Source of the DNA: Acidobacteriota bacterium
GTDB lineage: Bacteria > Acidobacteriota > Terriglobia > Terriglobales > Acidobacteriaceae
Assembly (NCBI GenBank): GCA_021778315.1
Contig: JAJYCQ010000049.1
Span: 1 to 5,961 of the forward strand
Reading direction: 5' to 3'
DNA length: 5,961 bases
Shown here in pieces: positions 3,481 to 5,216 of this stretch (positions within the stretch are counted from its first letter, which is position 1; every line of letters begins with the position of its first letter). Position numbers and translations under genes: made by a program. The notes beneath the pieces are model-generated. The model was given only the letters and a program-made list of their open reading frames with translations, had not been told where the DNA came from and made no database searches.

Positions 3481-4638
3481 ATGCGCGCAATTCTCGCCCT
3501 CGAAGACGGGCGGTTGTTTTGGGGCAAGGCCTTTGGGGCCGGCAGCGATGCCAATGGACCAGCGGTTGAGCGCGTGGGCGAGGTGGTGTTCAATACTTCG
3601 CTGACGGGCTACCAGGAGATTTTTACTGACCCATCGTATGCGGGTCAGATTGTGGTGTTGACCAATCCACATATTGGGAATTATGGGACGAGTCCGAGCG
3701 ATGCGGAGTCGGGGCGGCCGTATATCGAGGGGCTGGTGGTGCGGGAGTTTTCTCCGGTGAGCTCGAACTGGCGGTCGACGGAAGTTGCGGACGAATATTT
3801 AGAGCGCAACGGCGTGCCGGTGATTGCGGAGATTGATACTCGGGCGGTGGTGCGGCATCTTCGGACGCATGGATGCTTGCGGGGCGTGATCTCGACTGCG
3901 GTGGAAGATACGGATGCGCTGGTGGCGAAGGCTCGCGCGCATAAGACGATGGCGGGGACGGATCTGGCTAGCGTGGTGACGACGAAGTCCAGCTATGCGT
4001 GGGATGCGGATGAGCCGAAGAATGAGAGTGGCGATACGTTGCTGCCGGGGGTGGATGCGGCGGCGAAGGAGACGCTGCATGTGGTCGCGTATGACTTCGG
4101 GATCAAGCAGAATATTCTGCGGATGCTGACTCGCGAGAATTGCCGGGTGACGGTGGTTCCGGCGAAGACGACCGCTGCGGAAGTGCTGGCGATGGCTCCC
4201 GATGGCGTGTTCTTTTCGAATGGGCCGGGTGATCCGGAGCCGCTGGAATATGCTGTCGCGAACGTGCGGGAGTTGCAGGGGAAGGTGCCGCTGTTTGGGA
4301 TCTGCCTGGGGCATCAGATCTTTGGGCTGGCGCTGGGCGGGAAGACGTACAAGCTGAAGTTTGGGCATCATGGCGGGAATCATCCGATCATGAATTTAGA
4401 GACGCGCAAGGTGGAGATTACCGCGCAGAATCATAACTTCAACGTGGACCCGGAGAGCTTGCCGGGCGATGTGGTGCGGACGCATACGAATCTGAATGAT
4501 GACACGCTGGCCGGGTTGAAGCATGTGACTGACCCGATGTTCAGCGTGCAGTATCACCCGGAGGCTTCGCCGGGGCCGCATGATTCGCATTATTTGTTTC
4601 GGGACTTTCGGAAGATGATGGAGGCGTGGAAAAAGTGA
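3481..4638 (+). CDS. carA: Carbamoyl-phosphate synthase, small (glutaminase) subunit
   Basis: CarA hydrolyses glutamine and channels the ammonia to CarB for carbamoyl phosphate synthesis, feeding pyrimidine and arginine biosynthesis in the cytoplasm. The 385-residue product matches the usual length (E. coli 382). The N-terminal CarA-specific domain is seen in MRAILALEDGRLFWG, in FNTSLTGYQEIFTDPSYAGQ, and in the EIDTRAVVRHLR stretch. The C-terminal class I glutamine amidotransferase domain contains FFSNGPGDP, the nucleophile elbow GICLGHQ with Cys275, and the other triad members His359 and Glu361 in QYHPEASPGP. The spacing of these residues equals that of E. coli Cys269, His353 and Glu355, so the enzyme should be active. 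The ATG at 3451 would add 10 residues and is rejected on ribosome-site grounds. The stop TGA overlaps a GTG start of the nuclease-like gene. carB follows only after that gene. Confidence 0.97.
   Translation: MRAILALEDGRLFWGKAFGAGSDANGPAVERVGEVVFNTSLTGYQEIFTDPSYAGQIVVLTNPHIGNYGTSPSDAESGRPYIEGLVVREFSPVSSNWRSTEVADEYLERNGVPVIAEIDTRAVVRHLRTHGCLRGVISTAVEDTDALVAKARAHKTMAGTDLASVVTTKSSYAWDADEPKNESGDTLLPGVDAAAKETLHVVAYDFGIKQNILRMLTRENCRVTVVPAKTTAAEVLAMAPDGVFFSNGPGDPEPLEYAVANVRELQGKVPLFGICLGHQIFGLALGGKTYKLKFGHHGGNHPIMNLETRKVEITAQNHNFNVDPESLPGDVVRTHTNLNDDTLAGLKHVTDPMFSVQYHPEASPGPHDSHYLFRDFRKMMEAWKK
4620..4624 (+). promoter_or_regulatory. Shine-Dalgarno inside the carA 3' end, for the nuclease-like gene
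   Basis: GGAGG (4620-4624), within the last carA codons, lies 10 bases before the GTG at 4635 and only 1 base before the alternative GTG at 4626. The spacing favours 4635, which overlaps the carA stop as GTGA and suggests translational coupling. Confidence 0.5.
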
Positions 4639-5216
4639 GCGAGAGGCAAAGCTTCTACGTCTATGCGCTCAAGGACCCACTGGTCAATCCAGCTATTCCG
4701 TTTTATATCGGCAAAGGTACTGGCATCCGTGCTTGGGAGCACGAACTTACTGTAGATGGCTCGTCGAAGGGGCAGCGTATCGACAAGATTCATGCCGCTG
4801 GCAAGAAAGTTCTGGTTACTCAACTCGTCGAAGGCCTGAACGAATTGGATGCACTCCGCATTGAAGCAGAACTTATTAGCGCTTTTGGAACGGAAGCTAC
4901 TGGCGGTCTGCTAACGAACGCGGTGATGCCGAGCCTGACCCCATTGAAGCGTCGATCAAGAGATATCAATGTCCCGAGTGGAACAGTTGAGAAGGCCCAA
5001 ATGGGATTGGATTTGCTCAAGAGTGCCGTGATGGAGGTAGCGCTTGCAAATGAGGACGGTGTTACGAACTCAGATGTTGCTCATACCCTGGGCTTACAAA
5101 GTGATTATTTAGGCGGGTCGAAGGACTACCTAAGTTGGAGCTTGCTCGGTCTTCTCATGCGTGAGGGACGAATGATTCGAGTTGACAAGAAAAAGCATAA
5201 GGCGCAGGTGCGATAG
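4635..5216 (+). CDS. GIY-YIG nuclease-like protein with C-terminal winged-helix-like region, between carA and carB
   Basis: From GTG 4635 the product has 193 residues (196 from GTG 4626). Residues about 7-97 look like a GIY-YIG domain of the LEM-3-like/COG3680 type. FYVYAL (7-12) stands for the GIY strand, FYIGKG (23-28) for the YIG strand, and Arg32 with His36 follow at the spacing of Arg27 and His31 in I-TevI. RIEAELISAFG (75-85) supplies the metal-binding glutamate (Glu77 or Glu79), and LLTNAV (92-97) the conserved Asn95. All key catalytic positions therefore seem intact. Residues about 118-183 contain GVTNSDVAHTLGLQSDY and KDYLSWSLLGLLMREGRM, which I read as a winged-helix DNA-binding region; this part is less certain. 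The gene overlaps the carA stop by 4 bases and ends 3 bases before carB. Two 60-base stretches that I counted by hand are about 50% GC, against 65-70% in similar stretches of carA and carB. This suggests acquisition by transfer. A role in carbamoyl phosphate synthesis is unlikely; a selfish or defence-related nuclease is more plausible. Confidence 0.8.
   Translation: MSERQSFYVYALKDPLVNPAIPFYIGKGTGIRAWEHELTVDGSSKGQRIDKIHAAGKKVLVTQLVEGLNELDALRIEAELISAFGTEATGGLLTNAVMPSLTPLKRRSRDINVPSGTVEKAQMGLDLLKSAVMEVALANEDGVTNSDVAHTLGLQSDYLGGSKDYLSWSLLGLLMREGRMIRVDKKKHKAQVR

Follow-up and report, generated by a model that had tools for sequence, protein, structure and literature searches.

A putative GIY-YIG nuclease gene between carA and carB in an acidobacterium, and the variable gene content of that junction among its relatives

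Introduction

At integration hotspots and defence islands, core genes flank a fixed position whose accessory content varies. Among characterised proteins, the nearest relative of the gene product described here is PD-T4-3, or CMoRE, a single-gene type IV restriction nuclease (PDB 9U75, 9U7U). The C-terminal domain of CMoRE is reported to sense 5hmC and 5ghmC, and the protein to cleave modified DNA and protect against T-even phages (PMC12923530). Most but not all members also have an inserted loop of negative charge, in which four acidic residues stand in a row (PMC12923530). As for the genomic position, carA-orf-carB operons have been described in Pseudomonas aeruginosa and Xanthomonas citri, the two ORFs being said, in the accessible part of that paper, to be dissimilar (PMC4619228). 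A first-pass annotation of the DNA considered here knew of no such arrangement as standard, a statement that these published cases qualify. In the open-licence PMC literature we found no published report of a carA-carB cargo slot in Acidobacteria.

Here we consider a stretch of 5,961 nucleotides from an Acidobacteriota bacterium (assembly GCA_021778315.1, contig JAJYCQ010000049.1, positions 1 to 5,961), called the window throughout, in which a nuclease-like gene lies between the two subunit genes of carbamoyl-phosphate synthase. The carA-carB junction in the family is, on our preferred account, a hypervariable cargo slot in an essential operon, and the window gene is one of the rarer cargoes, a stand-alone, restriction-like putative defence nuclease that would cut with its GIY-YIG domain and whose winged helix probably recognises DNA; taken as a whole, we consider this account probable. 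The slot itself is well supported; what the nuclease does, and how cargo is exchanged, we infer.

The window gene and its place in the carAB operon

The relevant features of the window are the following (L numbers below denote loci, G numbers genomes).

3481..4638, + strand: carA, small subunit (Pfam and NCBIfam match); an in-frame ATG also lies upstream at 3451
4620..4624, + strand: GGAGG within the final codons of carA and 10 nt upstream of the nuclease GTG, read from the sequence; putative ribosome-binding site that carA would provide for slot genes
4635..5216, + strand: cargo gene for a 193-aa protein with GIY-YIG and winged-helix domains, its start overlapping the carA stop as GTGA (ORF, Pfam, alignment, model)
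4635..4937, + strand: GIY-YIG-type domain, residues 1-101, with Y8, Y10, Y24, R32 and E79 (Pfam, alignment, model)
4977..5213, + strand: C-terminal winged-helix domain, residues 115-193 (predicted model)
5217..5219, + strand: spacer of 3 nt between cargo and carB, read from the sequence
5220..5961, + strand: carB, large subunit, 5' part and right edge of the slot (Pfam and NCBIfam match); first 260 nt 98-100% identical to L237 in 60-nt windows

The ORF list and its translation place the 193-codon gene (4635-5216, + strand) between carA and carB. As the first-pass annotation had read from the same letters, its GTG at 4635 overlaps the carA TGA (4636-4638, which sets the end of carA at 4638) as GTGA, and the carB ATG at 5220 leaves 3 nt after its end at 5216. 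The description of the gene as GIY-YIG-type and intact is borne out by the open frame, a match to PF22945 and invariant catalytic residues; likewise the operon is neither broken nor frameshifted, since carA, and carB as far as the window extends, fit Pfam and NCBIfam models without a stop. An alternative in-frame GTG at 4626 would give a protein of 196 aa. The start at 4635 is preferred because the frame opens with a GTG over the carA stop in all five other intact slot carriers too, the stop in one of them, L008, being that of a duplicated carA end. The nuclease gene has a GC content of 50.9%, against 59.2% in carA and 59.5% in the carB part; the low GC first reported is therefore real, but at 8.5 points its size had been overstated as about 15. 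At third codon positions the contrast is 53% against 73-76% in the neighbours. A simple assembly error is an unlikely source of the arrangement, which is repeated, GTGA overlap included, in five MAGs.

Further downstream, at 5475-5585, carB itself contains an in-frame low-complexity insert (ADSSAALRKESQKSKGNDNG...); similar inserts occur in L237 and L240 and are absent from L087, L088, L238, L242 and L253. The GC-rich palindromic core of this insert recurs in three congeners, in 7, 5 and 11 copies (at most 2 mismatches; control 0), which suggests that the essential enzyme CarB has taken up a dispersed repeat in frame.

The encoded protein

The LEM-3-like affinity suggested at first pass was recovered, the window protein scoring 28.9 bits against the Pfam LEM-3_GIY-YIG model (PF22945; cut-off 27), and NCBIfam gave no match to it up to E 1. 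Residues Y8, Y10, Y24, G26, R32, H36 and E79 are invariant across 48 aligned relatives. With the cut-off set at E 1, the PADLOC profile for PD-T4-3 matched 21 of 21 family members, the window protein at 1.1e-6. A fold search with the predicted model returned CMoRE, over the N-terminal part, as the sole PDB match at E <= 0.001 and gave no full-length match; the GIY-YIG fold, on which the earlier description depended, is thus present in the N-terminal domain of the model. In the two pairs that can be read, dN/dS is 0.11 and 0.06, which indicates purifying selection on the nuclease, the remaining pairs being near or past saturation.

Distribution and neighbours of the nuclease family

A scan with one genome per species confirmed 209 loci, of which the best 80 were kept; one viral contig came to light separately. 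Among these best 80, the carA-carB position is found only in L001, L002, L003, L006 and L008, all of them acidobacterial MAGs, so the mapping of homologues proposed at first pass finds carA or carB adjacent in 5 of 80 kept loci. The remaining 75 have neither gene beside the nuclease, a few of these loci ending close to it. The viral contig (L081, from IMG/VR) encodes a relative 56% identical to the window nuclease. Nearer homologues, at 89-97% identity (P0003-P0010), are represented as proteins only. Phage and plasmid collections otherwise gave only partial nuclease-domain matches, below 60% identity, with no record reaching 80% query coverage.

The neighbours were compared at the 78 loci with a clear ORF. 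An m5C methyltransferase lies within 4 ORFs on either side in at least 8 of the 78 (by clustering, Pfam-confirmed, on simple ORF calling), and none was recognised within that distance in the other 70; neighbours are otherwise diverse. They include the MzaB, MzaC and MzaD genes of an MZA locus (L080), a DISARM DrmA gene with Vsr and a methyltransferase (L076), Vsr and a methyltransferase (L027), and genes for HSP90-like ATPases (L035, L073 and L079). Such company points to a defence role for the nuclease family, short of proof, and the family is possibly an accessory gene of MZA and DISARM systems.

Closer to the window, the nuclease was found in 3 of 200 genomes from the family that includes G001, the source of L001, in 6 of 397 from the order, and in 0 of 28 from the genus to which G176, closely related to the window in its carA, belongs. 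A search without matches says little by itself, but the query used for the genus was the same one that did match in the family and order searches. Two further carriers from the order, G273 and G338, also have the gene between carA and carB, which brings the acidobacterial carriers found, window included, to eight of eight at this junction. The copies in G273 (L257/L260) and G338 (L258/L259) look broken by frame changes or stops, through decay or assembly error.

The carA-carB junction across the family

carA was found in 184 of 200 family genomes, and the junction was read in 90 of the 184: the 30 best carA loci and 60 more, nearly all next in rank (one with a contig end was passed over and one from lower rank was added). 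Eighty-six junctions were readable and 4 were not, in a sample that favours genomes with high carA scores and contains many MAGs. The carA-carB gap ranges from -1 to 1773 nt, reaching at least 300 nt in 43 of the 86 and at least 450 nt in 39. Three control junctions were taken from the same family, each with 30 loci that were the best matches of a 41-genome draw. Gaps of at least 300 nt occur there in 3/30 for sucC-sucD, 2/30 for atpA-atpG and 0/30 for atpH-atpA (Fisher's test against carA-carB: 7e-5, 2e-5 and 8e-8, respectively), and gaps of at least 450 nt in 0, 1 and 0 of 30. Pooled, the controls also show long gaps in 5 of 90, which counts against the preferred account. From a draw across the phylum, 35 of 43 carA regions were fetched; carB lay within 2.5 kb in 19 and not in 16. 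The single gap of at least 300 nt among the 19 (L264, 467 nt) belongs to a genome also present in the family draw, and since the phylum yields this one long gap, itself from the family, the slot appears to be a trait of this lineage. The window protein found no match in the 86 family junctions.

Cargo was scanned in 56 sense ORFs of at least 60 aa, from 45 loci, drawn from the 47 readable gaps of at least 200 nt (Pfam, E <= 0.01). The tally comprises IS200-like transposase (10 ORFs), carboxypeptidase-regulatory-like domains (7), GIY-YIG (PF01541; 5), XhoI nuclease, N4/N6 DNA methylase, ParE toxin, RHH antitoxin and GT87 (2 each) and HEPN/Toprim (1); most of the 56 are not nucleases, and no integrase is among the Pfam families that they matched. 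By clustering, a transposase is present in 13 loci, one of which (L100) has no carB in view. Judged by eye, these transposases are presumably REP-associated, and other slot ORFs presumably encode secreted proteins. In L146 and L171 the gap holds a methylase and an XhoI-type nuclease, by content a complete type II system. L167 (211-1527) encodes a 438-aa protein with a HEPN/Toprim N-terminal domain, a candidate single-gene defence.

The GIY-YIG proteins in the slots of L116, L117, L149, L162 and L174 represent two further kinds, that of L116 scoring under the Pfam curated cut-off. The proteins encoded by L116 (2640-3272) and the L117 gap, GIY-YIG-like and about 200 aa long, are of another kind and match Pfam weakly. 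Fifteen whole genomes, four of them chosen as known carriers of a slot GIY-YIG, hold 49 GIY-YIG matches altogether, 1-5 per genome and some in ORFs of more than 600 codons; the share in the slot (5/56) accordingly looks well above that of a random place.

Probable exchange among close relatives

Within the genus of G176, carA is present in 26 of 28 genomes, at 82-96% identity to the window, and 21 junctions are readable. The closest relative, L237 (carA 96%), has an unrelated 151-aa ORF in the slot, between flanks that match the window at the DNA level over carA (88-96%) and the start of carB (see the feature list). Four of the 21 (L240, L246, L253 and L092) are cargo-free, with carA and carB overlapping by one base as TAATG. 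Others hold, by eye, toxin-antitoxin pairs (L088, L241, L254; the ParE of L088 confirmed by Pfam), a transposase (L242), secreted proteins (L238, L250) or membrane proteins (L091, L256). The comparison of junctions in relatives that was proposed beforehand thus finds carA and carB cleanly joined in some and separated by other cargo in others. Together with the counts of 0/28 in the nearest genus and 6/397 in the order, this upholds the earlier suspicion of mobility or cargo status.

Some gaps also retain copies of their own edges. Counting gaps of at least 150 nt and edge copies that score at least 9 units above the best of 20 shuffles, scars of the carA end or carB start occur in 5 of 57; several other gaps, 1 above the best shuffle, were left out of this count, and 14 further distinct junctions (16 stretches) gave none above threshold. 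The carB-start scars of L149 (30 nt), L174 (29 nt) and L153 (20 nt) are exact, and L117 has 25 nt of the carA end with 1 mismatch. In L008, 50 nt of carB start (2 mismatches) and 54 nt of carA end (6 mismatches) are fused at a common CCGGCCC between two cargo genes, and this second copy of the carA end still joins the nuclease gene as GTGA. We infer that these scars were left when alleles carrying different cargo recombined. The stacked arrangement of L008 (4949-6321) consists of a gene for a 225-aa SAM methyltransferase (PF13489), the carB-start/carA-end scrap and the nuclease gene; a search for this methyltransferase in the other gaps gave no match.

Variable content, junctions that are cargo-free or differently filled in close relatives, precise edges, and scars in a minority of gaps characterise the slot.

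Proposed expression from carA

Of 111 carA ends, 110 have one of six Shine-Dalgarno-like pentamers close by, against 10 of 30 for sucC and 9 of 30 for atpA; part of this excess arises because the C-terminal residues of CarA are conserved. GGAGG itself is present in 68 of the 111 carA ends, at one fixed distance in 54 of those. Any ORF opening at the carA stop is thus preceded by a probable ribosome site. The proposal of a cargo nuclease that uses an essential operon for its expression fits these data in a wider form, many unrelated genes using the same slot.

Origin and role of the cargo

How the gene came to its present distribution can be read in more than one way. It may have been acquired once at the junction in an ancestor, inherited with carAB and mostly lost since, this particular cargo not being actively exchanged. 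Consistent with such a history, the six intact slot copies form one clade (96/92) in a nuclease tree of 79 sequences; in a further nuclease tree, built with outgroups, a carA-like topology is not rejected (p-AU 0.29); dS in the pair L002-L003 agrees between nuclease (0.445) and carA (0.47); and two of the eight carriers look broken. Because the carA-like order is not rejected, losses in addition to transfer may account for the patchy distribution. However, a carA tree with 36 rows, the 30 best carA loci plus the six carriers, puts the carriers in three places, and a single clade is rejected (p-AU 2e-56). The four closest relatives of the window (carA 92-96%) comprise two with other cargo, one with none and one that is unreadable. 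Nuclease identities also run against carA identities (L001-L006: carA 78.9, nuclease 57.8; window-L006: carA 68.0, nuclease 66.1), and dS of nuclease and carA differs in L006-L008 (1.44 against 0.88) and L002-L006 (3.0 against 1.7). The gene thus does not occupy this position in all relatives with the tree of carA and carB, the pattern set at first pass against mobility, and we consider a long residence with loss a real but minority prospect.

A free-standing homing endonuclease, as the first-pass annotation suggested, would cut the cargo-free carA-carB junction and be copied in during repair, the other GIY-YIG kinds of the slot behaving likewise. The restriction of all eight acidobacterial carriers to one junction would fit this, as would their single clade, the existence of cargo-free junctions whose sequence is well conserved in the genus, and the apparent excess of PF01541 in the slot (5/56, against the 49 matches in 15 whole genomes), although four of those 15 genomes were picked for carrying a slot GIY-YIG. 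On the other hand, 75 of the 80 kept loci lack adjacent carA or carB, the loci outside Acidobacteria lying elsewhere and some of them in defence loci; the site is not conserved over the family's range; most cargo is not nuclease; and the gene is rare rather than sweeping. Homing at this junction is consequently not supported by the present comparison; it is a live alternative, weaker than the reading of the gene as defence cargo, and we think it unlikely. A third member of the operon, whose product would help or regulate carbamoyl-phosphate synthase, could explain the tight spacing and translational overlap and is most improbable, the gene being missing from nearly all carA-bearing relatives searched and unrelated genes lying in the same place; this distribution led us to reject a third subunit, and the nuclease gene does not belong to the standard carAB operon.

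Under the preferred account, a variable slot that here holds a putative defence nuclease, homologous recombination within the conserved flanks, carA and carB, would exchange the cargo, with an occasional failed exchange leaving stacked cargo. The 3' end of carA would supply the Shine-Dalgarno sequence, such that an ORF placed at the carA stop could be translated from the essential operon, and the nuclease would act on invading DNA, perhaps modified phage DNA, in the manner of CMoRE. A more ambitious scheme makes the junction an integrase-free cassette slot, whose nucleases, restriction-modification systems, toxin-antitoxin pairs, transposases and secreted proteins are traded among strains and species through recombination in conserved carA and carB and translated from the carA ribosome site, aided by at least three GIY-YIG kinds that cut cargo-free junctions. 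We offer this version speculatively and would not expect it to hold in full.

Were the preferred account correct, selfish and defence genes would have, inside an essential operon, a landing place that is both fixed and expressed, where they would be exchanged through ordinary recombination and without an integrase. The slot would then serve as a model, small and countable, for the swapping of defence genes among bacteria, and would allow a direct test of the idea that GIY-YIG nucleases drive this exchange; the content of carA-carB in this family would be a place to seek new single-gene defences.

Comparison with known systems

The window nuclease resembles CMoRE in being encoded by a single gene with an N-terminal GIY-YIG domain, as that system is presented in the available part of PMC12923530; on alignment to 9U75, the GIYxY-YIG tyrosines and the catalytic R and E are common to both, and identity over the GIY-YIG domain is 30-34%. 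It differs in being shorter (193 aa, against 262 in the solved CMoRE chain) and in missing the acidic inserted loop described in that part of the paper: in one alignment a gap in the window protein lies opposite the four-D run of 9U75, a run that we equate with the CMoRE loop. The C-terminal parts may also differ, the window model having a winged helix where CMoRE has a sensing domain for which the available text reports no homologue (PMC12923530). With LEM-3/ANKLE1 the window protein shares the GIY-YIG domain (PF22945), just above the curated cut-off, and not the LEM and ankyrin parts, PF22945 being the sole Pfam domain found in it.

With respect to position, X. citri and P. aeruginosa likewise have an ORF between carA and carB, and the X. 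citri ORF overlaps the end of carA by one base and lies within the operon transcript; the accessible part of that paper does not describe a variable cargo slot (PMC4619228). In type II restriction-modification a cognate DNA methyltransferase gene lies beside the nuclease gene, whereas in the window the neighbours are carA and carB; since the window has no cognate methyltransferase, self-protection is left without explanation, which counts against the preferred account. Compared with integration hotspots and defence islands, the slot is distinguished by its scale and setting, mostly one or two genes, the majority on the same strand, inside a two-subunit operon.
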